Origin: Streptomyces sp. NBC_00457
GTDB taxonomy: Bacteria > Actinomycetota > Actinomycetes > Streptomycetales > Streptomycetaceae
Assembly: GCF_036014015.1 (NCBI RefSeq)
Contig: NZ_CP107905.1
Coordinates: forward strand, 10,168,001-10,232,000
DNA length: 64,000 nucleotides
Direction: 5' to 3'
A model generated the notes under the pieces. The model searched no databases and was not told the DNA's origin. It saw only the letters and a program-made list of their open reading frames with translations. Positions 10,915 through 54,846 of this stretch are shown one piece after another (within the stretch, counting starts at the first letter, position 1; each line of letters starts with the position of its first letter). Made by a program: the position numbers and the translations under genes.

Positions 10915-11391
10915 CTGCGGACACTGGTGGAGGACCTGCTGGAGATCTCCCGGCTCGACGCGGGCGCCGAGCGGGCCGAACTCAGGCCCGTACCGCTCGC
11001 CGAGATGGTCGGAGAGTCCGTGGCCCGCACCGGGCTGGACACGCGGTTCACCGCCGCCGATGCCCGGTCGGCGGAGACCGATCCGCGCCGGCTCGACCGG
11101 ATCGTCGCCAACCTCGTCGTCAACGCCCACCGGCACGGCCGCACGCCCGTCGAGGTCGAGGTGGCCGGGACGACCGTGACCGTACGGGACCACGGCCCGG
11201 GCTACCCGGCGGAGCTGCTCGCGGACGGCCCGCAGCGATTCCGCACGGGTGCCTCGGAGCGCGGCCACGGTCACGGCCTCGGGCTGACCATCGCGCTGGG
11301 GCAGGCCCAAGTCATCGGGGCGTCGCTGGAGTTCGCGAACGCTCCCGACGGCGGGGCGCTCGCCACCCTCCGGCTGCCGCCCGCGGGCTGA
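10915..11391 (+). pseudogene. Sensor histidine kinase, C-terminal fragment
   Basis: Starts abruptly in LRTLVEDLLEISRLDAGAE, the segment after a HisKA domain, and continues through the ATP-binding domain: N box RIVANLVVNAHRHG, G1 VRDHGPGYP and G2 GHGHGLGLTIA. The sensor, membrane and phospho-accepting His parts and any response regulator are missing. The break lies just right of the IS630 composite, so the upstream half was probably lost in that rearrangement. A GTG at 10927 could express the fragment, but it would lack kinase activity on its own. Confidence 0.85.
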
Positions 11392-11530
11392 CGCCGAACG
11401 GCCGATACCGAACGGATGCCCGGCCGAGCGGTGCCCGATCCGTGGCCGGAGCCGAGCGGAGATCCGCCCCGCGGAAGGTGGTCGACGTGCGTGAACGCCG
11501 CGCACCCGCCCCCTTGGAGGTGTCCCTCCC

Positions 11531-12556
11531 ATGTCACCGGTTCCCTTTTCCGGAGAGCCCGGCGCAGGCCGGGCCCAGCCCTTGTGGTCCACCGACTCAT
11601 GGCTCCCGCCCCGCCGGCACGACCGGTCCGGGCGGCGCTTCACGGCCGGCCTCGCCGCGGGCGCCACCGCACTGCTCACCCTGGCGGTCCTCGCCATCGC
11701 CGTGCCCACTTCCGGCAACAGCCCGGGAACCGGAGCGGGTTCGCTGCCGTGGCCGACGGAGGGGCAGACGAGCGTGGTGGTCGAGGGCCTCGGCGCCCAT
11801 GGTGACCTCGGTACGCGGGGCGAGCGGACACCGGTGCCGATCGCCAGCGTCACCAAGGTGATGACCGCCTACGTGATCCTCCGCGACCGTCCGCTGCGCG
11901 CGGGCGAGGACGGCCCCCTCGTCACCGTCGACCGGTCCGCCGCGAACGAGTCCGTCTCGGGCGTGGAGTCGAACGTGCCGGTCCGGGAGGGTATGCGGCT
12001 GAGTGAACGACAGCTGCTGGAACTGCTGTTGATCCCCTCCGGCAACAACATCGCCCGGCTGCTGGCCCGTTGGAACGCGGGCTCGCAGGAGGCCTTCGTC
12101 ACGAAAATGAACCGGGCCGCCCGTGACCTGGGCATGCGCCACACCACGTACACCGGCGCCAGCGGCATCGAACCCACGACCACCAGCACTTCGGCCGACC
12201 AGCTGAGGCTGGCCCGCCGGGTCATGCGCGACGAGGTGTTCCGGACCATCGTCGCCATGCCCAGCACCACCGTGCCCGGTGTCCCCGGGACGATCCGCAA
12301 CACCAACACCCTGCTCGGCACGGCGAACGTGATCGGCCTCAAGACCGGCTCCAGCACTCCCGCCGGCGGCGCCCTGATGTGGGCGGCCACCGCGTCCGAC
12401 AAGGACGGCCGGGACCGGCTGATCCTCGGAGTGGTGCTGCACCAGCGCGCCGGCACCGACCCCCGGCAGGGGCTGCGGGCCGCTCTCGCCACGAGCCACG
12501 CGCTGATCGAGAGCGTACGGCGATGGCTGTCGATGACCTCGCCCGGAACACGGTGA
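11531..12556 (+). CDS. D-alanyl-D-alanine carboxypeptidase (S11 family)
   Basis: 341 residues. An N-terminal cytoplasmic stretch and one membrane anchor (about 40-58, AAGATALLTLAVLAIAVP) export the catalytic domain. All three penicillin-binding motifs are present: SVTK (active-site Ser and Lys), SGNN and KTGS. It trims D-Ala from peptidoglycan stem peptides outside the membrane. A GGAGG-type site lies just upstream of the ATG. The gene follows the kinase fragment and overlaps in direction with the next gene 8 bases on, suggesting a former signal-responsive cell-wall operon. Confidence 0.92.
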   Translation: MSPVPFSGEPGAGRAQPLWSTDSWLPPRRHDRSGRRFTAGLAAGATALLTLAVLAIAVPTSGNSPGTGAGSLPWPTEGQTSVVVEGLGAHGDLGTRGERTPVPIASVTKVMTAYVILRDRPLRAGEDGPLVTVDRSAANESVSGVESNVPVREGMRLSERQLLELLLIPSGNNIARLLARWNAGSQEAFVTKMNRAARDLGMRHTTYTGASGIEPTTTSTSADQLRLARRVMRDEVFRTIVAMPSTTVPGVPGTIRNTNTLLGTANVIGLKTGSSTPAGGALMWAATASDKDGRDRLILGVVLHQRAGTDPRQGLRAALATSHALIESVRRWLSMTSPGTR

Positions 12557-12563
12557 GACGGCC

Positions 12564-13553
12564 GTGACAAACTCCCTCGACACCGCGCCCGCCCGGCCGG
12601 CACCCGATTCCACCCGCCCGCGGAACGAGGACACCGGCGTCCGGCGGCCGCCGCTGGTCCTCGGCTCGCTCGCGGGCCTGGCCACGCTGGTGATGCTGGG
12701 CCACGCCCTCGTCCCCAACCGGGTCGGCCGTCTCGGCAGCCTCGTCGAGACCTTCCTGCCCTGGACGGGTCTGGCCGTGCCGCTGCTGCTCCTGTGCGCC
12801 CTGGCCCGCCGGTCCAGGGCCGCCGCCGTGTCCGTGCTGCTGCCGGCCGTCGTCTGGTGCTCGCTCTTCTGCGGGACACTCGTCGACAAGCGGGAGGACG
12901 GTGGCAACCTGACCGTCGTGACGCACAACGTCAACGAACACAATCCGCGGCCGGTGCGCACCGCCCGTGCCCTGGCCGCCTCCGGCGCGGACGTGGTGGC
13001 TCTCGAAGAGCTGGGCGGCCCGTCGACAGCGGCGTACGAGAGAACGCTGGCCGGCACCTACCCGTACCACTCCGTGCAGGGCACGGTCGGTCTGTGGAGC
13101 AGGTATCCGGTCGCCGACGCCCGTGCGGTCGACATCGCGCCCTGGCCACGTGCGCTGCGCGCCACCGTCCGCACGCCCGAGGGGCCGGTCGCGGTCTTCG
13201 TCGCCCATCTGATGTCCGTCCGCTTCACCGCCGGCTCGGGGTTCACCTCCGACGCACGTGACGCGGCCGCACGGCGACTCGCCGCCGCCGTGCGCGCCGA
13301 GCCGCTCGCCCGCACGATCCTCGTCGGCGACCTGAACGGCACGACCGACGACCGGGCGTTGTCCGAGCTCACCTCCCAACTGCGGTCCGCGCAGGCCGAG
13401 TCGGGCGCTGGGTTCGGTGCCAGCTGGCCGGCCTCGTTCCCGGTGGCCCGGATCGACCACATCCTCGTACGCGGTGTGGAGCCGCGATCCGCCTGGACCC
13501 TCCCGGCCACCGGCAGCGACCACCTGCCGGTGGCGGCGTCGGTGCGGGTGTGA
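12564..13553 (+). CDS. Membrane-anchored endonuclease/exonuclease/phosphatase-fold protein
   Basis: 329 residues. Three hydrophobic segments lie in the first 100 residues, then an EEP (DNase I-like) domain facing outward. The motifs are THNVNEHN, ALEEL, GDLNGT, RIDHILV and the terminal GSDHLPV, covering the metal and catalytic residues of the fold. Such proteins cleave phosphodiesters in nucleic acids, lipids or nucleotides, and the substrate here is not evident. GTG start 7 bases after the carboxypeptidase stop indicates co-transcription. Confidence 0.87.
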   Translation: MTNSLDTAPARPAPDSTRPRNEDTGVRRPPLVLGSLAGLATLVMLGHALVPNRVGRLGSLVETFLPWTGLAVPLLLLCALARRSRAAAVSVLLPAVVWCSLFCGTLVDKREDGGNLTVVTHNVNEHNPRPVRTARALAASGADVVALEELGGPSTAAYERTLAGTYPYHSVQGTVGLWSRYPVADARAVDIAPWPRALRATVRTPEGPVAVFVAHLMSVRFTAGSGFTSDARDAAARRLAAAVRAEPLARTILVGDLNGTTDDRALSELTSQLRSAQAESGAGFGASWPASFPVARIDHILVRGVEPRSAWTLPATGSDHLPVAASVRV

Positions 13554-45485: not shown

Positions 45486-45880
45486 CCACTCCCGCCCCGG
45501 GGGGACCTGCCGCCCTGCCCCGGGATCAGCACCGCCGCCACCGCCAGGTGCATCAGGGCGAGGGAGAACCGGGTGCCGCCGTCCATGCCGTCGCCGGTGA
45601 ACGGCAGGAAGGACACGGCGAGTACGGCGCCGGCCACCCCGGTCCAGATGGCGCGGGCGCGCCGCGCCCCGAACCGCTCCAGAGCGGCCAGCAGGCCCCA
45701 GCCGGCAAGCGACGCGAGCAGTGCGACGACCGCCACGGGCACGGCGCCGATGTCGAGCGTCTGCTCGCCGTCGGCGATCCGCAGCCGGTGCCCCAGCAGC
45801 GGGTCCGCGACCAGCCACACCAAAACGGGAGCCAGGACGGCCAGGGCCGTAACCCCCAGGCGCCTTCTCCGCGCGCTCAC
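45470..45880 (-). CDS. Small membrane protein (DUF6069-like)
   Basis: 136 residues with four hydrophobic helices (LGVTALAVLAPVLVWLVADP, VPVAVVALLASLAGWGLLAAL, AIWTGVAGAVLAVSFL, LALMHLAVAAVLIPG), the pattern of DUF6069 proteins. GTG 45880 overlaps the TetR stop in GTGA, so it is translationally coupled to the regulator and likely its target. The last 15 residues (GQGGRSPRGGSGCHQG) look atypical, perhaps altered by a rearrangement. Function unknown. Confidence 0.75.
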   Translation of the reverse strand: MSARRRRLGVTALAVLAPVLVWLVADPLLGHRLRIADGEQTLDIGAVPVAVVALLASLAGWGLLAALERFGARRARAIWTGVAGAVLAVSFLPFTGDGMDGGTRFSLALMHLAVAAVLIPGQGGRSPRGGSGCHQG

Positions 45881-46488
45881 TTGGCGCCCCCCGAGAGCGC
45901 CCCGTGCAGGAAGACCTCCACCAGCTCCTGCGGGGTCAGATCGGGCTCGTCATCCGTGCGCGGCTGGGTGAAGAGCAGCCCGAAGAAGAGGGCGGCGATC
46001 TGCTCCGGCGGCCGGCGCAGGGCGGCCTTGTCGGGTTCCAGCAGCTCCGTGAGGGCCGCACGGGTACGGGTCATCGACTCGTCGCGGCCCGCGCCACGCA
46101 CCGTGCCGGGATGCTTTCCGCCGCGGTGCCCCAGCGAGCCGAGAATCGCGCCGATCCGGTCCATGTGCGCCTGCAGCGCCTCGGCCGCCTCCGCGAGCCG
46201 GTCGGGCAGCGGTTGGGATACGTCGATCGCGCCGAGCTCGCGGACCGCGTGCTCGGGGGAGAGGGCCTCGGCCACGCAGGCCTGCAGCAGCTCCTCCTTG
46301 TCGGCGAAGACCCGGAAGATCGTGCCCTCGCCGATGCCCGCGGCGCGGGCGATCTTCGCGGTCGTCACCGCGGCGCCGTACTCGGCGATCAGCGGGATAG
46401 CGGTCTGGATGATCATCGCGCGGCGCTGCTCCGGCAGCATGCCGGGGGCGCGGCGGCGGGTGGACTGTTTCTCCTTGGGTGCCGTCAT
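45877..46488 (-). CDS. TetR-family regulator
   Basis: 203 residues from ATG 46488. The N-terminal HTH is ATPLIAEYGAAVTTAKIA-like (IPLIAEYGAAVTTAKIARAAGIGEGTIFRVF split by the turn at AAGIG), followed by DKEELLQACVAEAL. The ligand domain is variable. It is first in a two-gene unit with the DUF6069-like membrane protein. Its own promoter region carries a conspicuous double palindrome (46503-46543), a likely autoregulatory operator. Confidence 0.9.
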   Translation of the reverse strand: MTAPKEKQSTRRRAPGMLPEQRRAMIIQTAIPLIAEYGAAVTTAKIARAAGIGEGTIFRVFADKEELLQACVAEALSPEHAVRELGAIDVSQPLPDRLAEAAEALQAHMDRIGAILGSLGHRGGKHPGTVRGAGRDESMTRTRAALTELLEPDKAALRRPPEQIAALFFGLLFTQPRTDDEPDLTPQELVEVFLHGALSGGAK

Positions 46489-46502
46489 GACCACGAGAGT
46501 AC

Positions 46503-46543
46503 GGAGTGAGGACTCACTCCGTCAATGAGTGAGTCCTCACTCC
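46503..46543. promoter_or_regulatory. Double-palindrome operator upstream of TetR gene
   Basis: Arms 46503-46519 (GGAGTGAGGACTCACTC) and 46527-46543 are exact reverse complements, and each arm is itself a palindrome GAGTGAG-GA-CTCACTC. This gives two tandem dimer sites, typical for TetR proteins, 15 bases before the start codon. Confidence 0.8.
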
Positions 46544-46560: not shown

Positions 46561-47556
46561 TCAGGCGCGGGCCATCGCGATGGAACCGGCCAGGCGCTCC
46601 CCCGCCTCGTAGATCATGTACGCCACGCCGCCGTCGGTGCCGAACGTCGGGGAGGCTGATCGGCCGTTGTCGGGGGCCGCGTTGCGGGAGTTGTAGAAGA
46701 CGCCGAGGTGGGCGCGCTTGCTGAAGTCGTTGCCGACCTCGGTGATCATGATGTCGCCGCCGCTCGCCTTGTCCTTGTTGTAGACGACGTACGTGCTGTT
46801 GTTGCGGTGGAGCAGGTGGGGCCCGCCGATGTTGACGGCGCCGACGTCGGAGTGACGGACCAGCGGGCGCTGGTCGTAGCTCCAGGTGCGCCCGTCGGCC
46901 GACCAACCCCAGTGGATGTCACGGTGGTTGGTGGTGTTGTTCAGCATGAACACCATGACGTAGTGGGCGCCGCGGGACGGCAGCTCGTGCGGGAAGACAC
47001 GGGCGTACGACGTCTCGGTCGTGCCGCTCGGCAGCATCGACGTGGACAGGACGACCTTGTCGTAGGTGAAGTTGACGCCGTCCTTGGACCGGGCCAGTCG
47101 CGTCGTCGTGTTCTCTCCGTGGAAGTAGAGCCACATCTCCCTGGCACTCTCGTTCCACATCACGTGGGCGGACGCCACATGGCTGACGGAGTAGTGGGGC
47201 TGCCAGTTGTTCGAGACGATCGGGTTGTCCGGATACTCCGTGAAGGGGCCCTCCAGGGAGTCCCCGTAGGCCAGGCAGATGCCACCGGGCGCGTCGTGCG
47301 GCCCGTAGTACAGGTAGTACTTCGCAAGGGGACTGGCCAGACGTCCGGCCGTTCCGCGGATGCACGGGAAGATGATCTCGCCCGTCGGGTTGTACTTCAG
47401 CTGGGACGGCTTGAGCAGCGTGCGGACGTACGTGTAGTCGGGGAATCCGCCGGGGGCGGCGGACGCGGCCGGGGCGGAGAGTCCGCCGAGGGTGAGGGCG
47501 GCGCCGGTGGCCGCGGTGGTGCGCAGGAACAGACGACGGTCGAACCGCTCATGCAT
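46561..47556 (-). CDS. Tat-secreted glycoside hydrolase-fold (five-bladed propeller) protein
   Basis: 331 residues from ATG 47556. FDRRLFLRTTAATGAALTLGG is a twin-arginine signal. The rest has repeating blades with motifs such as YYLYYGPHDAPGGICLAYGD, ASAHVMWNESAREMWLYFHGE, RLARSKDGVNFTYDKVVL and GWSADGRTWSYDQRPL, as in GH43/GH117-like proteins. A secreted sugar-degrading or binding role is likely. It ends the minus-strand unit that starts with the LacI gene, 27 bases after the permease. Confidence 0.78.
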   Translation of the reverse strand: MHERFDRRLFLRTTAATGAALTLGGLSAPAASAAPGGFPDYTYVRTLLKPSQLKYNPTGEIIFPCIRGTAGRLASPLAKYYLYYGPHDAPGGICLAYGDSLEGPFTEYPDNPIVSNNWQPHYSVSHVASAHVMWNESAREMWLYFHGENTTTRLARSKDGVNFTYDKVVLSTSMLPSGTTETSYARVFPHELPSRGAHYVMVFMLNNTTNHRDIHWGWSADGRTWSYDQRPLVRHSDVGAVNIGGPHLLHRNNSTYVVYNKDKASGGDIMITEVGNDFSKRAHLGVFYNSRNAAPDNGRSASPTFGTDGGVAYMIYEAGERLAGSIAMARA

Positions 47557-47582
47557 GGTCGGCTCCAAGGGGAGAGGGAACG

Positions 47583-48869
47583 TCAGAGGTAGGTGGCCGC
47601 GGTGACGCACAGCCCGCCGAGGGCGACAGCCCACACATACGGGAGCGTGCGCACCATGACCTGCTGCGGGGAGACTCCCGCATACTGGGCGGCCCAGACG
47701 GTCTGCGTACTGGTCGGGTCGGCGACGCCGAAGACCTGGTTGTACGACGTGGCCATACCGAGGACGACCGCGGCGGGATAAATGCCCGTGGCGATCAGGA
47801 CGCCCGCGATCCCGGCACCCAGCCCGAAGACGTTCAGCGGTCCGCGGTAGAGGCACAGCGGCGCGAGCAGCGTGAAGACGATGACGAACAGCACGGCGTT
47901 GTGCGGGCTGACCGCCTTCATCAGCGGTTCGAGTGCGTCGACGGCACCGGGCAGCTTCACCGCGGCGAGCAGGATGCCGATGGCGATGAACAGGGCGATC
48001 GGCGGGGCGGCCACCTCGAATCCGCCGTACAGGGTGCGCAGGAGCCGCTTGTTCATGTCCCGGGGCCGGGTGGTGGTGGCCAGGGCGTACAGGACGCCGG
48101 CCAACAGGGAGGGGATGATGGCGAGTTCGAAGCCCAGGGCGAGGATCAAGGGTACGGCCGGGGTGAGCAGCGCGTACCAGGGGGCGTCGCCCAGCTTCTC
48201 CCGTCGGCTGGGTGAACGGGGCTTTTCCTGCAGAGACTTGAGCGACCAGGTGTGTTCCACGCCGCGTCGGCGCGACTCGACGAACACGTAGAGGACGGCG
48301 GCCACCAGGGCGAACGGGAACAGCTTGACCATGAACCCGCGGACGGTCGGCACGGGCAGTTCCAGAGCCGTGGAGAAGAACTGCCACAGGGGCAGTTCGA
48401 ACGGGATGCCCACGGCGATGCCCATGAGGATGGTCCCCGCGGCAGTCACCTTGGGGATGCCCACGGCGATCATGGCCGGGATACCGATGAGCCCGGCGAG
48501 CATCGCGGCAGGCGCGGAACCGGTGACGGTCCCGACGAGGGCGGAGACAGCCAGCACCCCGAGGGCCACGACGACCGGGCGGTCACCGCCGAACTCGACG
48601 ATCTTGCGGACGAGCGTGGCGGCGACGCCCGTCTCCTCCAGGAGCTTGCCGAGCCACGAACCCAGCACGATGGCGATCATGGTGGCGGCCAGCGTGGGCG
48701 CGCCCTCCTGGAGAACCGTGTCGATGACGCTGTTCTTCCCGGTCAGCGGCGCGCCGGCGAGGAAGGCGATGACGACGGCGAGGAGGACGAGCGCGAAGGC
48801 CGTGGGCAGTCTGCGGGTGAGCATGGCTGCGACCCCCGCCGCCATGACGAGCAGGATGACGAGACCCAT
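47583..48869 (-). CDS. GntP/CitMHS-like permease
   Basis: 428 residues, about 11-12 hydrophobic helices. The pattern VTGSAPAAMLAGLIGIPAMIAVGIP in the first half and YRGPLNVFGLGAGIAGVLIATG in the second resembles ion-coupled organic-acid transporters of the gluconate/citrate type, though the assignment is by general appearance. It starts 3 bases after the HEXXH-like gene and should import the acid metabolised by the operon. Confidence 0.75.
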   Translation of the reverse strand: MGLVILLVMAAGVAAMLTRRLPTAFALVLLAVVIAFLAGAPLTGKNSVIDTVLQEGAPTLAATMIAIVLGSWLGKLLEETGVAATLVRKIVEFGGDRPVVVALGVLAVSALVGTVTGSAPAAMLAGLIGIPAMIAVGIPKVTAAGTILMGIAVGIPFELPLWQFFSTALELPVPTVRGFMVKLFPFALVAAVLYVFVESRRRGVEHTWSLKSLQEKPRSPSRREKLGDAPWYALLTPAVPLILALGFELAIIPSLLAGVLYALATTTRPRDMNKRLLRTLYGGFEVAAPPIALFIAIGILLAAVKLPGAVDALEPLMKAVSPHNAVLFVIVFTLLAPLCLYRGPLNVFGLGAGIAGVLIATGIYPAAVVLGMATSYNQVFGVADPTSTQTVWAAQYAGVSPQQVMVRTLPYVWAVALGGLCVTAATYL

Positions 48870-48872
48870 GGT

Positions 48873-49478
48873 TCATCTCTCCCTTCCGGGCGCGGTCACC
48901 GCGGCGGTGAGCGCGGCGGTGAGGAGCAGGGGGCTGCGGCCGAGTCCGCAGACCGTACGGGCACAGGCGTGGGCGGCGATCTCCTCGGCCCCCGCCACAT
49001 GGCCGAGGACCCGGAATCGGCCGACTCGCAGGGCGATGTGCCCGACCGCTTCCTTGAGGGCGGCCTTCGTCTCCTTGCGGTGCAGCAGTTCGTGCGCGGC
49101 CTCATGGGCGAGGGCTGCGGCACGCACGGATCCCACGGGATACCAGGAGCGCCAGCCGAGTTCGTCGATCAGCGTCTCGGCCCGTTCGATGGTGTCGGTG
49201 TACAACTCGACGGTGGCGGGACGCGAGGTGTAGCGGGCGAGCAGTAACTGCTCGAGTCCGTCGCCGCGTTCGACGATCCGGGCGCGGCACGGGCCGGGGT
49301 CGAGTGTGGCGCCGAACGCGTCGGCGGCCTGGGCCCATTGGCGCAGTCGGGCACCTTCACGTCCCTCGTGCGTGGGCGTCGCGGCGAGCAGGCGTACCGC
49401 CAGGTCGAGGTCGTCCGCGGCCGGATCGGCGGCGGGCCCGAGGAGTCCCACCACCCGTCCCGCGCGGGAGCCGGTCAT
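48873..49478 (-). CDS. Unknown protein with HEXXH-like motif, in hydantoinase operon
   Basis: 201 residues. ATG 49478 overlaps the HyuA stop in ATGA, so both are made together. The only recognisable motif is RAAALAHEAAHELLHRKET at about residue 110, where HEAAH fits the HEXXH zinc signature and is followed by another His. The remainder (YTSRPATVELYTDTIERAETLIDELGWRSWY before it; LGRSPLLLTAALTAAV after it) matches nothing I know. It occupies the place where HyuB is usually encoded. It may be a metalloenzyme or an assembly factor; the function is unknown. Confidence 0.7.
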   Translation of the reverse strand: MTGSRAGRVVGLLGPAADPAADDLDLAVRLLAATPTHEGREGARLRQWAQAADAFGATLDPGPCRARIVERGDGLEQLLLARYTSRPATVELYTDTIERAETLIDELGWRSWYPVGSVRAAALAHEAAHELLHRKETKAALKEAVGHIALRVGRFRVLGHVAGAEEIAAHACARTVCGLGRSPLLLTAALTAAVTAPGRER

Positions 49479-51619
49479 GACCGCACCTCCAGTACGGCGA
49501 CCACGGGTTCGTCGGCCGCGCGGTCACGCATCTCGCTGCGGGCCAGGGCGAGCAGGGGCTGCGGGTCGAGGACTCCGGAGAGGTCGGCGATGCGGGAGCC
49601 GAGGAGGAGGCGCAGCGCGGGGGCGCGGACGCCCCCGTCGCCGTACGACGTGGCCTCGCGCACCAGGTGGGCGAGGAGTTCGGGGGCGGCAGCCACGGTG
49701 GTGGCGGCCACGCGCGCGTCGGAGGCGTGCAGGCGCACCACGCCGTCGGCGTCGACGACGCGTACGGGTCGCCGGGTGGCCCTCATTCGGCGGCGCACCT
49801 CCGTGCCGAAGACCGTGTGGGCCGGCGTGCCGGCGAGGACGCGGACCCGGGCGGGGTCGGTCTTGAGGCTGGCGGCCGCCGCGGCGAGGCGTCCGTCGTT
49901 GTCGGTGCTGTGCGCGCGGTCCTGGGTCCGCAGTTCGGTGGCGCCGGTGGCGATGGCGCGCACGGTGCTGGTCTGCGGGTCGAAGGTCACCTCGACCTCG
50001 ACCCCGTCGGCCGCGGCCCCCTGGGCGACGACGGCCTGTTCGGCCTCGGCGCGTACGGCGAGGATCTGCTCCTGGCCGGCACCGGGGATGATCCGCTCGA
50101 TCTGCTCCCGCACCAGGGCGAGGGCCACGCCGATCGGGCTGATGACCTCGTTGTTCCGGGCGATCCTGCCCTCCATCCCGCTGAGCGCCGCCACGTGCGG
50201 AGTGACGGTGGCCGCTCCTCCGCCGCCGCCGACGAGCACCGCGGTGTCGGGGTCGAGGCGGTAGTCGCGGACGAGCCCGTCCACCACCTTCCTCACCTGG
50301 GTCACGCCCGCGTCGAGGATCCGGCCCGCGGCCGTCGGCACGTCCACGCCCAGGACGGCGGCGAGGGGGGCGATCGCGGCCCTGGCCACCTCCTGGTCGC
50401 AGCGCGCGAAGTCCCCTTCGGGGACGCGGCCGAGCGCGTTGGCGGCGCAGGTCATGGTGATGGCGTACCGGCCGCCCGCCGCGTCCAGGACGGCGTAGTC
50501 ACCCGGGTCCTCCGGCATCGGGGCCACCGTGGCGAGAGCCGCGTCGCGCAGGTCGTCGGGGCCGGCGAAACAGGCGTAGGGCAGTCCCGCGATGTGGGCG
50601 CTGCGCGGCCCGACGCCTGTGACTCGGGCCTGCTGGACGCCGGTCCGGTCGATACGGACCATCGAGCCGCCGCCGACCCCGACGGTGCGCACGTCCAGGG
50701 CGTTGAGGTACGAGGCCTTGCCGAGCATCGTGGCGTGCCGGACGGCGACCCTGCCACGGCGTACGACGCTGATGTCGGTGGAGGTGCCGCCGGTTTCGAG
50801 GAAGACGCCCTCGCTGATCCGCTCCTGCATCAGGGCGCCGGCGACTCCGGCCGCGGGGCCCGACAGCACGGTCAGCAGCGGGCGTCGTCGCATCTCGTCC
50901 AGCGCCATGACCCCGCCGTCGCAGCGCATGACCATGAGCGGTGCGGTGACGCCCGCCTTGGTGATGGACGCGTCCACGAGGTCGGCGGTGGTGAGCATGC
51001 GCGGCAGGATGGCCGCGTTCACGACGGCGGTGCGGGTCCGCTTGTGCAGCCCGTACAGCGAGGTGATCTCGTGCGCCGCCGTCATCGGAAGCCCGGCAGG
51101 CCCGGCCGCCTCCAGTACGGACCGCTCCCCTTCGGGCCGGTCGACGGCGAACGGCTCGGTGGCGACGAGGACTTGGGCGCCAGCTCCCCTCAACTCCTCG
51201 ACCGCGGTACGTACGGCGGTCGCGTCATCCGGGTCGGCGACGTGGGCGTAGGCGAGCGGAAGCCGCTTGCCGGGGGCGAGTTCGAGCCGGCCCAGCGCGG
51301 CGAGGCGGCGGGTCAGGACGGCTGCCGGTCCTGAGCCGATGCCGATCAGGCCGACCGTGGCCACATCGCCCTCCAGCAGGGCGTTGGTGGCCTGGGTCGT
51401 GCCGTGCGCCAGGAAGGCGATGTCGGCGGGAGCGCGGTCGACCTGTTCGAGCAGCCTGCCGAGTGCTTCGACGATGCCGTGGGCGACTCCGTCCTCGTGA
51501 TGGTGGCTGGTGGGGACTTTGACCTGGCCCAGCAGGCCCAGTGTCGTGGCGTCCACGGCGACGGCGTCGGTGAAGGTTCCGCCCACGTCGATGCCGACGC
51601 GGATGCGGTGATGGGTCAT
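49475..51619 (-). CDS. HyuA-type hydantoinase/oxoprolinase subunit
   Basis: 714 residues. The actin-like nucleotide site is RVGIDVGGTFTDAVAV, with FLAHGTTQATNALLEG, SGPAAGVAGAL, ETGGTSTDISVV and VLVGGGGGAATVTPHVA. Family members use ATP to open cyclic imides or lactams, or carboxylate ketones, usually with a HyuB partner. No hyuB is visible here. About 120 bases separate it from the FAD oxidoreductase start of reading (51742). The C-terminal 130 residues are variable. The substrate is unknown. Confidence 0.9.
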   Translation of the reverse strand: MTHHRIRVGIDVGGTFTDAVAVDATTLGLLGQVKVPTSHHHEDGVAHGIVEALGRLLEQVDRAPADIAFLAHGTTQATNALLEGDVATVGLIGIGSGPAAVLTRRLAALGRLELAPGKRLPLAYAHVADPDDATAVRTAVEELRGAGAQVLVATEPFAVDRPEGERSVLEAAGPAGLPMTAAHEITSLYGLHKRTRTAVVNAAILPRMLTTADLVDASITKAGVTAPLMVMRCDGGVMALDEMRRRPLLTVLSGPAAGVAGALMQERISEGVFLETGGTSTDISVVRRGRVAVRHATMLGKASYLNALDVRTVGVGGGSMVRIDRTGVQQARVTGVGPRSAHIAGLPYACFAGPDDLRDAALATVAPMPEDPGDYAVLDAAGGRYAITMTCAANALGRVPEGDFARCDQEVARAAIAPLAAVLGVDVPTAAGRILDAGVTQVRKVVDGLVRDYRLDPDTAVLVGGGGGAATVTPHVAALSGMEGRIARNNEVISPIGVALALVREQIERIIPGAGQEQILAVRAEAEQAVVAQGAAADGVEVEVTFDPQTSTVRAIATGATELRTQDRAHSTDNDGRLAAAAASLKTDPARVRVLAGTPAHTVFGTEVRRRMRATRRPVRVVDADGVVRLHASDARVAATTVAAAPELLAHLVREATSYGDGGVRAPALRLLLGSRIADLSGVLDPQPLLALARSEMRDRAADEPVVAVLEVRS

Positions 51620-51741
51620 GTCGCAGCACCTCCTTGTGCTGTGAAAGTCGTGCTCGGGTGGTCGCGGGCGGGGCAGGGGAAGCCGGGGCCTTCCTGCTCA
51701 CGCGCGCGGTTCGGCGTCCGGGGCCGCCGTGTGTGCCGGGG

Positions 51742-53352
51742 TCAGTAGCCGCGTACGTCGGGCCAGTGGCGCTGTACTCCGTCGCGGTCGAGCCGGCGGG
51801 CGAATTCCTCGAACCGCTTGTCCTCGGCCTGGACCTGGTGCGGTTCGACGTCCTCGGCCAGGCAGTGGGCGGCGAGCGCACCGGCGGCCTCGCCGATGTT
51901 CCACTCCACCGGGTGGAGCCGGAAGCAGCCGTTGGTGATGTGTGTCGTGCCGATGTTCTTGCCTGCCGGCAGCAGGTTGCGGACCCGTCGCGGCACCAGT
52001 GCCCCGAGCGGGATCTCGAAGGGCACCGAGCCGATGTCGATGTAGGTGTCACCGCCCGTCGAGGGGTGCAGGTCGATGCGGTAGCCGCCGACTCCGACGG
52101 AGTCCCGGTGCCTGGTGCCGCCGTAGGGTCCGACCAGGTCGATCGCCACGTCGTGCTCGGTGACGGTGGTGACGGCCTTGATACGGCGCGACTCGCGGAC
52201 GTAAGGCGCCTTCGCCAGGCCGTCGGCGGTGCCGGTCACGTCGGGGCGCAGGCGCAGGCCCGGTAACCCGGTGCCGCCGTCCGGGCGGGGCGCCTCGGTC
52301 TGCAGCCAGTACAGGACCGACAGGGACAACTGCCGTGCCTCGGCGACCGCTTCGGCTCCGGTCTGTGCTCCGGCCCCGACGAGCGGCTTCAACCAGTAGT
52401 CGTTGAGTGGCCAGTTGACGAGGGTGATGTCGGAGTCGAAGGCTCCGGGGCGGTGCATCCTGTGGGCGAGGATGCGGCGGAAGCCCCACAGTTCCTTGTC
52501 GCCCGCGTCCGTGCTCTGGTCGGCGCTCACCGCGAGCGGGTCGTGGTCCGGGTTGGGGACGAAGGTACGCGACACGGGTTCCAGGGTGCGCGGATCGGGG
52601 GCCCCGAAGCCGAGGAGCGGTCCGGGCCAGAAGTCCGGCCGGTACGCGCGCCAGAAGTCGTAGTCCGCCGGACGGTCGACCGTGTGGTCCTCACCCTCGT
52701 GATGGGAGAGCGCGAAGCACACGGTGATGCCCTGCTGGTTGAGCGGCTGGGCCCGGTCCGGGGCGTGCGGCTCGTCGTACTCGGAGCGCGCCTCGGCACC
52801 ACAGGCGTGCTCGACACCCGCGAGGTCGAGGAGTTCACCGGTCTCCGTGGCGTCGAGGACGTATCGGGCCGCGAGGGTGACGCGGGTGCCGTCGTACCGG
52901 TGCTCCAGCGTCACGGCCCGTACGACATCGTTGTCGGATTCCGCCGTGACGGGCCGGTGGTCGGTGAGGACGGTCAGCCGTCCGGCGGCCCGGTGGGGCG
53001 CGAGCATGGCCTCCAGCACGGCCAGTGCCACCCGCGGCTCGTGACAGAGTTTGCTCACGCGTCCGGCGCCGGGGTTGAGATCCTTGAGCGCCAGCGCCTG
53101 AGAGCGCATCGGGTACCACTGCCGGTACCACTGCCGTATGCCCTCACGGAGTTGGCGGTACGAGGCGGTGGTGCCGAACTGCTCGACCCAAGGGTGTTCG
53201 TCCGGGGGCACGGCCTGCGAGGTGAGCTGTCCGCCGATCCAGTCGGTCTCCTCGGTGAGCACGACGCTGCGTCCGGCCCGGCAGGCGGCCAGCGCCGCGG
53301 CGACGCCGCCGAGTCCGCCGCCCACGATGAGGATGTCCGCTTCGGGTATCAC
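51742..53352 (-). CDS. FAD-dependent oxidoreductase (FAD_oxidored type)
   Basis: 536 residues. N-terminal ADILIVGGGLGGVAAALAACRAG binds ADP of FAD; TEETDWIGGQLTSQ follows, then ARYVLDATETGELLDLAG and, near the C-terminus, RVRNLLPAGKNIGTTHITNGCFRLHPVEWNIGEAAG. These are the marks of the PF12831 group, found in sugar-acid and aminocyclitol catabolism and still poorly characterised. It is second in the LacI-led unit and probably oxidises the operon's substrate before ring opening by HyuA. Confidence 0.9.
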   Translation of the reverse strand: MIPEADILIVGGGLGGVAAALAACRAGRSVVLTEETDWIGGQLTSQAVPPDEHPWVEQFGTTASYRQLREGIRQWYRQWYPMRSQALALKDLNPGAGRVSKLCHEPRVALAVLEAMLAPHRAAGRLTVLTDHRPVTAESDNDVVRAVTLEHRYDGTRVTLAARYVLDATETGELLDLAGVEHACGAEARSEYDEPHAPDRAQPLNQQGITVCFALSHHEGEDHTVDRPADYDFWRAYRPDFWPGPLLGFGAPDPRTLEPVSRTFVPNPDHDPLAVSADQSTDAGDKELWGFRRILAHRMHRPGAFDSDITLVNWPLNDYWLKPLVGAGAQTGAEAVAEARQLSLSVLYWLQTEAPRPDGGTGLPGLRLRPDVTGTADGLAKAPYVRESRRIKAVTTVTEHDVAIDLVGPYGGTRHRDSVGVGGYRIDLHPSTGGDTYIDIGSVPFEIPLGALVPRRVRNLLPAGKNIGTTHITNGCFRLHPVEWNIGEAAGALAAHCLAEDVEPHQVQAEDKRFEEFARRLDRDGVQRHWPDVRGY

Positions 53353-53429
53353 GCTTCTCCTTGCTGGTTGTTCCGGTCCACGGAGGATTCGGTGGACTCA
53401 GTCGACTCGGTGGATTCGGTGCGGGGAGG

Positions 53430-54533
53430 TCAACGGCGCTCCGGCGGCCTCCCGGTGGTCGCACCTGGCCGGAACACACAAGTGACCAGGGGTTCTTCGG
53501 CCTGCTCGTCGGCCACGAGTGCGGCCAGCAACCGGACCGCGGCCGCGCCCAACTCGTGGCGGGGGATGTCGAACCCGGTGGGTTGCGGACCCTCGACGAG
53601 ATCGGGCGGAGGGCTGCCGAGGAGAGCGAGGGAGAGATCATCGGGGCAGGTCAGGCCGGCTTCGTCCACGGCTGCGCGCAGAGCGCGCCAGGCGGCCCCG
53701 GTGTCGGTCTCCTCCGCGACGAAGGCGGTGACGCCCTCGGCAAGCCATCGGCCCAGCCTCTCGGGTGTGAGGTCGCGCTGCGGATCGGCGCAGCGGAGGA
53801 CGGCCTGGGGCCCGCCGGCCAGTCCGGCCGCCTCCAGCCCCTCCAGGAAGCCCCGTTGACGGTCCGTCGAGGCGGGCGCGTCATCGTCCTCACGGACCAG
53901 GACGATGCGGCGGTGCCCCAGTGACGCCAGGTGCCGGACCACTTCGCTGCTGGCGCTCACATAGTCGGCGCCCACCCAGGACAGTCCTTCCAGCTCCTCG
54001 CGACGCCCGAGGTGCACGACCGGGAACCCGTCGGCGACCATCCGCTTCAGCTCGGCGAGCGGGACGTGCCGGCCAAGGAACAGACAACCGTCAGCGAGCC
54101 GCACCCGGTTCAACGCCTCGGGCCCGGCCGCCCCGGCACCACCGGAACTCGACCCCGTGAACAGCACCAAGTCGTAGCCGCGCGCGGCGGCTTCTCGCTC
54201 CACGCCGACGAGGAAGGGGTAGTACGAGTGCTGCACGTCCGTCGGGAAGGTGGCCGTGAAGCTGAAGACGCCGAGCAGGTTGTTGCGGGCCGCCGCCAGG
54301 CGCCGAGCCGCGGGATCCGGTGCGTAGCCAAGACTGCGGGCGGCATCGAGCACCCTCTGACGTGTCTCGTCGGAGATCGCCGAGGCCTGCGCCTTGTCCG
54401 ACAGCACGAGCGACACCGTGGCCTGGGACACCCCGGCCAGTCGGGCGACCTCCGCTTGCCGCGGTCGTGACGTGCGTCCCGCCACGGTGGGGGTCCGACC
54501 ACGCCGTGACCGCTTCCTGGGCTGCTCCACCAT
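53430..54533 (-). CDS. LacI-family transcriptional regulator
   Basis: 367 residues from ATG 54533 (GTGGGGAGC upstream). The HTH is AEVARLAGVSQATVSLVLSD with the hinge helix LGYAPDPAARRLA. The periplasmic-binding-protein-like domain binds a small effector, probably a sugar or sugar acid. It heads the minus-strand catabolic genes and is the obvious repressor. Tandem operator-like repeats lie in its upstream region (54575-54611). Confidence 0.92.
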   Translation of the reverse strand: MVEQPRKRSRRGRTPTVAGRTSRPRQAEVARLAGVSQATVSLVLSDKAQASAISDETRQRVLDAARSLGYAPDPAARRLAAARNNLLGVFSFTATFPTDVQHSYYPFLVGVEREAAARGYDLVLFTGSSSGGAGAAGPEALNRVRLADGCLFLGRHVPLAELKRMVADGFPVVHLGRREELEGLSWVGADYVSASSEVVRHLASLGHRRIVLVREDDDAPASTDRQRGFLEGLEAAGLAGGPQAVLRCADPQRDLTPERLGRWLAEGVTAFVAEETDTGAAWRALRAAVDEAGLTCPDDLSLALLGSPPPDLVEGPQPTGFDIPRHELGAAAVRLLAALVADEQAEEPLVTCVFRPGATTGRPPERR

Positions 54534-54574
54534 GCTCCCCACCCGGCCGCTCACGACCGATGTCCGGGCTGTTG

Positions 54575-54611
54575 ATGCGTATCAGTAATGCGTATCAGTA
54601 ATGCGCATTAG
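54575..54611. promoter_or_regulatory. Operator-like tandem repeats for the LacI regulator
   Basis: ATGCGTATCAGTA occurs twice in tandem (54575-54587, 54588-54600), followed by a variant ATGCGCATTAG. The last overlap creates a perfect palindrome TAATGCGCATTA (54599-54610) with the CG centre typical of LacI sites. Confidence 0.75.
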
Positions 54612-54846
54612 CCCGTACTGTGAGCGCCTTGAGGGCGTCGGTCAAGGCTTCCTGCACGATTTCTTCGGACCTCGGCCGACGACGACAACACACGTTCACC
54701 GCCCTCTGCCGCCGAGGCCGGACAGCCCCCCAGCTCAAGGCGGTGATCGGCGGGACGGGCGAGCGGCAGGGGCGGCGGAGGCGTTGGTAGCGTCGGCGTG
54801 TGCCGTGCCGGCCGGTGCGGTGTGCCGCTCGACCGAGAGAGACCTG

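Follow-up and report, generated by a model that had tools for sequence, protein, structure and literature searches.

HyuA subunits are widely annotated as hydantoinases or oxoprolinases, with the tacit assumption that a HyuB subunit completes the enzyme. A gene block in a 64,000-nucleotide stretch of DNA from Streptomyces sp. NBC_00457 (contig NZ_CP107905.1, positions 10,168,001 to 10,232,000; here called the window) raises the question of what such a subunit does when a small HExxH protein is encoded beside it instead of HyuB. This arrangement, proposed in a first-pass annotation, is supported by its maintenance across genera and in Archaea, and the pairing of HyuA with the small protein (p201) is itself well supported.

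As had been described, the block consists of six minus-strand genes from a LacI regulator to a Tat-type propeller protein, and the gaps between them in this order are 77, 122, −4, 3 and 26 bases. The LacI-family regulator (53430–54554; Pfam PF00356 and PF13377) probably has its true start at the ATG at 54533, as judged from the window sequence and the starts in homologues. It is followed by a FAD-dependent oxidoreductase (51742–53352; PF12831, 359 bits), a HyuA-type ATPase subunit assigned to a divergent clade by its motifs and the tree (49475–51619; PF05378 and PF01968), and p201, a putative gluzincin-like HExxH protein without a Pfam match (48873–49478), the start of which overlaps the HyuA stop by 4 bases. 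The last two genes encode a single-component permease of the DctM/DcuC/GntP type (47583–48869; PF06808 DctM, 45.8 bits, cut-off 23.8) and a Tat-type secreted, five-bladed-propeller-like enzyme distantly resembling GH43, GH32, GH117 and GH130 (46561–47556). The permease has a DctM domain; the families of its TRAP partners, the DctP binding protein and DctQ, do not occur among the six genes. Sequence searches of the PDB gave no relative of the FAD enzyme at E 0.001 and no useful one of the permease.

The tandem operator-like repeats noticed ahead of LacI proved to be real. Three 16-base near-palindromes with a spacing of 13 bases, within 54571–54612, form three overlapping predicted LacI-type operators on the minus strand (54597–54612, 54584–54599 and 54571–54586). 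A promoter-like pair on the same strand (54617–54645) was read by eye, with TTGACC at 54640–54645 and CACAGT at 54617–54622 separated by 17 bases; TTGAC and a similar −10 were likewise seen in most, not all, upstream regions of relatives. Of the 12 fixed letters in CTAATRCGYATTAG, two of the three window repeats have 10, and after a scan of 31 loci an operator-like site was found before LacI in all 24, the window included, that hold the region ahead of an intact LacI. With at most one mismatch, TAATRCGYATTA occurs at four places in the 10.8-Mb genome, two of them at the window repeats, and the reversed pattern at none; across the 11 genomes searched this control is not always zero, giving one to three places in four of them. 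The second exact operator-like site of the window's genome (1150983) lies ahead of genes for a different LacI and an ABC importer of sugars and is therefore read as that regulator's own site. Three extra sites from the other ten genomes were fetched (L034, L036 and L037), each beside a LacI with an importer, and the sole match in the Curtobacterium genome lies away from the block, the block operator having drifted there. That the block forms an operon behind LacI-type operators is a supported prediction.

A search for the six-gene order in other Actinobacteria, as suggested in the first-pass annotation, showed that the part from LacI to the permease is kept across genera. The order LacI, FAD enzyme, HyuA, p201 and permease recurs in Streptomyces, Kitasatospora, Curtobacterium, another member of the Microbacteriaceae and one further actinobacterial family, so that an operon unique to the window's genome can be rejected. 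The four genes from the FAD enzyme to the permease have this order at all ten loci compared and also at L018, L019 and L021. LacI stands ahead of them at nine of the ten, the contig of the other (L004) beginning after the LacI position; at L009 and L010 it is only 35–36 % identical to the window LacI. Furthermore, of 150 Streptomyces genomes 29 have p201, and the window-type HyuA is found in exactly these 29; the two genes are neighbours in 28 of them and lie on two contigs in the other. Among 197 genomes of the class, p201 was found in four, exactly those with a close HyuA (60–100 %), and a fifth HyuA (43 %) is without p201. The 4-base overlap of both genes is present at 24 of 27 actinobacterial loci. 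In the open-access literature, no characterised counterpart of the complete gene set was found. Relatives of the FAD enzyme elsewhere occur with ABC importers and without HyuA; in LacI–FAD–ABC importer clusters (Rhizobium, Agrobacterium, Streptomyces plasmids) LacI is followed by a FAD enzyme 56–61 % identical to that of the window, whereas HyuA, p201 and the window permease are absent from the three regions viewed.

The window HyuA shares the HyuA domains and the phosphate-1 motif (GIDVGGTFTD, with D11) with the ATP-dependent lactamase family of HyuAB, CapAB and 5-oxoprolinase, and in both cases a likely metal protein is encoded beside the ATPase subunit. In caprolactamase, CapA uses ATP and a zinc site is held by CapB (PMC8453981). 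In contrast to this family, the operon encodes a 201-residue HExxH protein and no HyuB, a Pfam search of the six genes revealing no hyuB, and the phosphate-2 and adenosine motifs of its HyuA are altered. The phosphate-2 Asp (D295 of CapA, in DMGGT) is replaced in the ETGGT of the window HyuA, and among 11 sequences of this kind the position is Glu in nine and Asp in two. The adenosine motif GxxPGP is found in none of the 11, all of which possess a GPRSAHIAGLP-type sequence instead.

The small partner had been called an HExxH-like protein of unknown type; the HExxH was confirmed (HEAAH, residues 125–129), and p201 is now best read as a small gluzincin-like protein of the M78/IrrE or Zincin_1 type. 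An alignment of 23 sequences, that of the window among them, shows H125, E126, H129, E166 and H170 without exception, and E166 is probably the third metal ligand beside HExxH. Like p201, M78 (ImmA/IrrE) and Zincin_1 proteins combine HExxH with a Glu further downstream, located in an ExxA(H/N) stretch; however, p201 matches neither model, and its coupling is to HyuA instead of a repressor. The zincin families of Pfam did not match the 23 members, which gave three unrelated weak hits (one member each), and neither NCBIfam nor a PDB search by sequence yielded anything useful for p201. Three more hits of the p201 profile in the phylum sample (E 0.005–0.01) were set aside as short.

Homologues of the permease, HyuA and the FAD enzyme are also located on haloarchaeal plasmids together with a small HExxH zincin, and a propeller homologue is present at two of the three haloarchaeal loci compared. 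The permeases are 31–34 % identical to that of the window, and HyuA and zincin overlap by 4 bases at all four loci viewed. The haloarchaeal zincin, represented by 3 sequences, matches p201 in a profile comparison (E 2.2e-5, probability 76.5 %) with the HExxH and the later Glu in register; plain tblastn gave no link between the two proteins. One of three haloarchaeal partners passes Zincin_1 (22.6 bits, cut-off 22.4), the second has sub-threshold hits to M78 and Zincin_1 and the third has none. A sulfatase was seen near the block in two haloarchaeal loci.

Among 72,556 plasmid records the window-type HyuA occurs in 8 (E <= 1e-60) and the permease in 6 (E <= 1e-15), all within these 8; the propeller was found in 4, of which 3 belong to the same 8. 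In contrast, a Selenomonas plasmid carries the FAD enzyme, the permease and a HyuA (43 %) with no zincin next to them, and HyuA relatives in Deinococcus and in genome G053 adjoin an iron permease, likewise without a zincin. A scan for small HExxH reading frames gave one hit each at L117, L121, L020 and L123; the L117 frame runs antisense to HyuA, no frame follows a HyuA, and all four were read as chance.

The secreted partner, which had been taken for a glycosidase, differs by locus: it is a GH43-like propeller, a PL8 protein like xanthan lyases, or a propeller to which a domain resembling xanthan-binding modules is added. The partner is exchangeable and in some loci a PL8 polysaccharide lyase. 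No Pfam family matches the window propeller above cut-off, and PF04616 (GH43) does not match it at all, whereas 14 of 22 aligned relatives do at E <= 5 (best 4.4e-8). The profile of its family is similar to the five-bladed propellers of GH43, GH32, GH117 and GH130, from which it differs by invariant residues of its own (H87, H126, H146, E181 and R186). A lyase reading of this propeller found no support, as hydrolases and phosphorylases came up in the profile search beside chance hits, and no lyase did. PL8 proteins lie behind the permease in L009 and L010, and none is among the six window genes. The L009 PL8 is closest to xanthan lyases (495–499 bits versus 388 for the next molecule) and also matches the hyaluronate lyase model under its cut-off. 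It has an Arg and a Tyr counted as aligned with R612 and Y315, the pyruvate-binding residues in the xanthan lyase of Bacillus GL1, and both are missing from the promiscuous 6F2P; as literature searches for these two residues found nothing, this is only a hint. The C-terminal domain of a protein at L101 resembles the xanthan-binding module MiXBM (E 2.6e-5), and searches gave no identity for the 570-residue partner in L008. The xanthan link is drawn from L009, L010 and L101, with L104 by resemblance only; most loci have a propeller of unassigned specificity.

By their PL8 enzyme like xanthan lyases or their xanthan-binding-like domain, some loci of the block resemble the xanthan loci of Microbacterium XT11, Paenarthrobacter ilicis 6C and Paenibacillus taichungensis I5. 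For P. ilicis, PL8 is listed together with LacI, a FAD oxidoreductase and an ABC importer in the xanthan utilisation region (PMC12772297), a similarity to the block in LacI and the FAD enzyme. As far as the excerpts of these sources go, the loci differ from the block by ABC importers in place of a DctM-type carrier, and neither HyuA nor a small zincin is named in the gene lists; the word hydantoinase is absent from the P. ilicis and P. taichungensis papers. Literature searches found no enzymes removing pyruvate ketals, and the sections of the xanthan literature at hand name no enzyme acting on pyruvylated mannose after its release. The neighbours of the block point to glucuronate-rich, xanthan-like polymers.

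The chemistry and the substrate of the block are deduced from sequence. In our best explanation, which as a whole we consider about evenly balanced between right and wrong, the block is an inducible catabolic module that imports and degrades an acidic sugar derived from a glucuronate-rich, xanthan-like polysaccharide, and in which HyuA and the zincin form an ATP- and metal-dependent enzyme replacing HyuAB. A secreted lyase or glycosidase would free a negatively charged sugar from the polymer, the single-component permease would import it, and the sugar or a product of it would relieve LacI. The FAD enzyme may make a carbonyl or lactone on the sugar, and HyuA may activate the substrate with ATP, as proposed for CapA. 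p201, with a metal on H125, H129 and E166, would then perform the hydrolytic step done by the HyuB zinc site in ordinary HyuAB. The most specific guess for the substrate would be a pyruvylated hexose, as released by xanthan lyases, or a uronate made by such lyases. Several observations speak against this explanation: the HyuA relatives with no zincin next to them, the departures of HyuA from CapA in two ATP motifs, the lack of a Pfam zincin family for p201 and its limited link to the haloarchaeal protein, the FAD relatives with ABC importers, the hyaluronate lyase match of the L009 PL8, the small number of loci behind the xanthan link and the sulfatase near two haloarchaeal loci. That HyuA and the small gluzincin constitute a novel class of ATP- and metal-dependent enzymes with two components in Actinobacteria and haloarchaea, for a step on acidic exopolysaccharide sugars such as pyruvylated mannose, is a tentative and rather doubtful proposal.

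A HyuB encoded elsewhere in the genome could be borrowed by HyuA, p201 being a bystander, and a hyuB under the same regulator had been named in the first-pass annotation as evidence against the pairing. Indeed, a PF02538 search of the window's genome revealed two hyuB loci, both outside the operon. However, both carry their own HyuA, one of them as a fused HyuAB gene, and the window HyuA, with identities of 24 % and 32 % to these proteins (one compared over 462 residues only), branches apart in the tree. The sole operator-like site near either locus has one mismatch and is separated from the beginning of the fused gene by about 1.2 kb; a gene of the IclR type lies in this interval, and another gene stands directly behind the site. 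A hyuB in the same regulon was rejected, and borrowing appears highly improbable. The family membership of HyuA would also be in line with its annotation, namely degradation of a nitrogen compound such as a lactam or hydantoin, and its best NCBIfam match is the caprolactamase alpha subunit, at 87 bits far under the cut-off of 1000. Against this, enzymes acting on carbohydrates are encoded repeatedly within the block or following its operator, which makes such a substrate very unlikely.

p201 might also be a regulatory protease like ImmA/IrrE, which would cut a repressor or regulate HyuA, the latter acting alone. Its HExxH and downstream Glu, a haloarchaeal partner with a weak hit to M78 (17.8 bits, cut-off 22) and the Selenomonas HyuA without a neighbouring zincin are consistent with this role; nevertheless, the regulator beside the block changes from LacI in Actinobacteria to IclR in haloarchaea while the 4-base overlap of HyuA and zincin stays, and we regard it as unlikely. 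We judge no more favourably the view that p201 is not a catalytic subunit but an accessory protein that supplies HyuA with metal or assists in its folding or reactivation. The small size, the overlap with HyuA and the absence beside some HyuA relatives would suit such a helper, but the HExxH and the later Glu and His are the same in all 23 sequences, as suits a catalytic metal or one that is tightly bound.

If HyuA and p201 do act together as preferred here, a lineage of HyuA has long been kept with another, probably metal-binding partner, and the ATPase half would be re-usable for other chemistry. The pairing would then correct the hydantoinase and oxoprolinase names of such HyuA proteins. 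In addition, the block opens a way to follow what becomes of acidic sugars from xanthan-like polymers inside the cell; since the operon has its own operator, carrier and candidate enzymes, a simple induction screen can be used to look for its substrate.

The operon of the window is real and conserved. As the first-pass annotation had described, it comprises six closely spaced minus-strand genes (gaps of 77, 122, −4, 3 and 26 bases). They encode a LacI regulator (53430–54554; Pfam LacI), an FAD oxidoreductase (51742–53352; PF12831, 359 bits), HyuA (49475–51619; PF05378 and PF01968), the 201-residue protein p201 (48873–49478), a permease (47583–48869; DctM-type by Pfam) and a Tat-type secreted, GH43-like propeller protein (46561–47556). 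No Pfam family matched p201, whose HExxH-like motif is HEAAH at residues 125–129, and none exceeded the cut-off for the propeller. The tandem operator-like repeats are three overlapping 16-base copies in 13-base steps (54571–54612), preceded by a TTGACC/CACAGT promoter-like pair that was spotted by eye. At the other end, the inverted repeats GAGTGAGGACTCACTC and GGAGTGAGTCCTCACTCC (46503–46542) lie between the propeller stop codon and the next gene, coding for a TetR-family regulator (45877–46494), and are likely the operator of the latter.

The gene order extends beyond this genome. A scan for p201 with one genome per species yielded ten loci (L001–L010), all of which possess FAD enzyme, HyuA, p201 and permease in that order. 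LacI heads the block in nine of them, the contig of L004 beginning after this gene; the LacI proteins of L009 (Curtobacterium) and L010 (Microbacteriaceae) are just 35–36% identical. Counting the window, the HyuA and p201 genes share a 4-base overlap at 24 of the 27 loci; those that depart from this are L007 (with a split p201), L100 and L115. The last is a decayed Streptomyces copy with truncated HyuA and no LacI or FAD gene found alongside. Among 150 Streptomyces genomes, the same 29 contain p201 (by profile) and HyuA (E ≤ 1e-60); the genes are adjacent in 28 and split over two contigs in G674, and two genomes carry broken copies (G651 decayed, G571 with HyuA in two frames). The propeller is present in 24 of these 29 versus 3 of the 121 others (Fisher p 8e-20, kinship ignored), that of G674 being a 49% relative on a separate contig. 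Of 197 genomes of the class, five yielded a HyuA: in four it is close and accompanied by p201, and in the fifth, a 43% relative, p201 is absent. Across 396 genomes of the phylum the p201 profile clearly matches two Streptomyces; three further matches were weak and short and were set aside.

An operator-like site of the same kind, CTAATRCGYATTAG, was seen in upstream regions of orthologues. Within 31 scanned loci, a site matching 10 or more of the 12 letters precedes LacI in all 24 that hold the region ahead of an intact LacI. No site was found in five (L004 and L102, where contigs end, L107, the decayed L115, and L116). In two Streptomyces loci, L105 (position 8530) and L106 (position 8500), such a site is kept before the propeller gene, and neither HyuA nor p201 was found in either genome. 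In L018 and L019, from another actinobacterial family, the propeller gene is divergent from LacI and a second perfect operator is present; that both the gene and the operator survive this rearrangement speaks for a functional connection.

TAATRCGYATTA was searched with at most one mismatch in 11 genomes, in four of which the control yields 1–3 places. The window's genome has four places (control zero), two of them at the operon. The third is an exact site before a different LacI with an ABC sugar importer; such a pair with a nearly identical operator was observed in L033 (at 5984; window's genome, 1150983), L034, L036 and L037, two of the four having the variant TAAAGCGCATTA. The fourth, with one mismatch, lies roughly 1.2 kb away from where a fused HyuAB gene starts, directly before a third gene, and an IclR-type gene separates it from the fusion. 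Judged by these sites the regulon looks local. By the same measure it includes no hyuB; two hyuB loci exist elsewhere in the genome, each with its own HyuA.

In a 13-sequence tree the HyuA clade of the window groups with Selenomonas and haloarchaea (support 0.99), and the two conventional HyuA of the genome form a separate branch (support 1.0). The clade retains D11 of the phosphate-1 motif, which is common to the caprolactamase subunit CapA, whereas 9 of 11 proteins of this kind have Glu in place of the phosphate-2 Asp and all 11 lack GxxPGP. According to the caprolactamase report, CapA D11A and D295A reduce activity and the zinc site is in CapB (PMC8453981). ATP use by HyuA is therefore likely, although its details may differ.

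The Curtobacterium HyuA, used as a tblastn query against 72,556 plasmids, found full-length relatives of 41–44% identity in Selenomonas and haloarchaea. Halostagnicola, Halocatena and two Haladaptatus have a permease ahead of HyuA and a protein of 171–173 residues that overlaps the HyuA stop by 4 bases; an IclR regulator and an enzyme that is either PF12831-type or FAD-annotated lie nearby. Three of these loci (Halostagnicola, Halocatena, Haladaptatus) were compared with the window by tblastn: identity is 31–34% for the permease, 40–42% for HyuA and 26–31%, over partial length, for the FAD enzyme. Propeller relatives occur in Halostagnicola (33%, E 7e-47) and Halocatena (31%, E 2e-36), with no match in the Haladaptatus locus, and p201 matched none of the three. 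HExxH is present in all three aligned small proteins; with Pfam-type models one passes Zincin_1 (22.6 bits, cut-off 22.4), one has sub-cut-off matches to M78, M48 and Zincin_1, and one has no zincin match. When the p201 profile was compared with these three sequences, the match (E 2.2e-5, probability 76.5%) placed HExxH and a later Glu in register.

Zincin or p201 follows HyuA in 6 of 8 plasmid records with such a HyuA, the second Halocatena being judged by annotation alone. The Selenomonas plasmid carries FAD enzyme, permease and HyuA, but zincin was not found alongside, and Deinococcus has HyuA with an iron permease; both speak against the zincin being strictly required. HyuA relatives of 38% adjoin FTR1-type iron permeases in L020 (actinobacterium; permease named by eye) and L121 (Deinococcus; permease annotated), and no zincin was seen next to either. 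Three plasmid clusters of LacI, FAD enzyme and ABC sugar importer (L122–L124; Agrobacterium, Rhizobium, Streptomyces) have FAD enzymes 56–61% identical to that of the window.

The secreted partner is exchangeable. The propeller follows the block in L001–L007; in L008 (Streptomyces sp. NRRL F-5126) an unclassified 570-residue protein (11179–12891) replaces it and an alpha-L-arabinofuranosidase (PF09206; 1998–3701) lies ahead of the block. L009 and L010 have a PL8 protein instead, scoring 495–499 and 492–514 bits, respectively, to xanthan lyases versus 388 and 390 for the next molecule; the best NCBIfam model for L009 is hyaluronate lyase (396 bits, below the cut-off of 1350). All but one of the characterised PL8 xanthan lyases are specific for pyruvylated mannose, as stated in a review (PMC10881899). 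Five Streptomyces with HyuA lack the GH43-like gene, and two of them (L101, L104) have a divergent WD40-like propeller with its own operator-like site; a PDB search with the L101 protein found its terminal domain to resemble MiXBM (E 2.6e-5) and a xanthan lyase tail (E 0.003). An AXE1 esterase (PF05448; chosen by eye, Pfam-confirmed) lies near the block in L018, L103, L111 and L112. H87, H126, H146, E181 and R186 are invariant in the GH43-like propeller, whose profile neighbours are five-bladed hydrolases and phosphorylases. In Haloarcula marina (L125, 7759–9966) the propeller forms the rear part of a 735-residue protein, after other sequence; an ABC sugar importer, a sugar kinase and a sulfatase lie next to it.

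The P. ilicis report lists a plasmid region for xanthan with PL8, sugar kinase, manA, LacI, ABC importer, FAD oxidoreductase and a second LacI (PMC12772297); by gene name it shares LacI and FAD oxidoreductase with the operon, the latter possibly of another family, but has an ABC importer. P. taichungensis releases pyruvylated mannose, and the available part of that account names no later enzyme for it (PMC12827396). The first-pass annotation knew of no described pathway with the whole set, and as far as open-access literature shows the HyuA–zincin set is undescribed.

The operon unites a conserved block, an operator, coupling of HyuA with p201 and an exchangeable secreted partner. A sugar acid would be freed outside the cell; the single-component carrier would bring it in, the FAD enzyme would oxidise it and HyuA would activate it with ATP, and the activated product would be hydrolysed at a putative p201 metal. 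Sulfatase and AGE-type epimerase are neighbours in two haloarchaeal loci, so the polymer used there may differ. The likeliest candidates for the substrate are a pyruvylated hexose and a uronate produced by a lyase.
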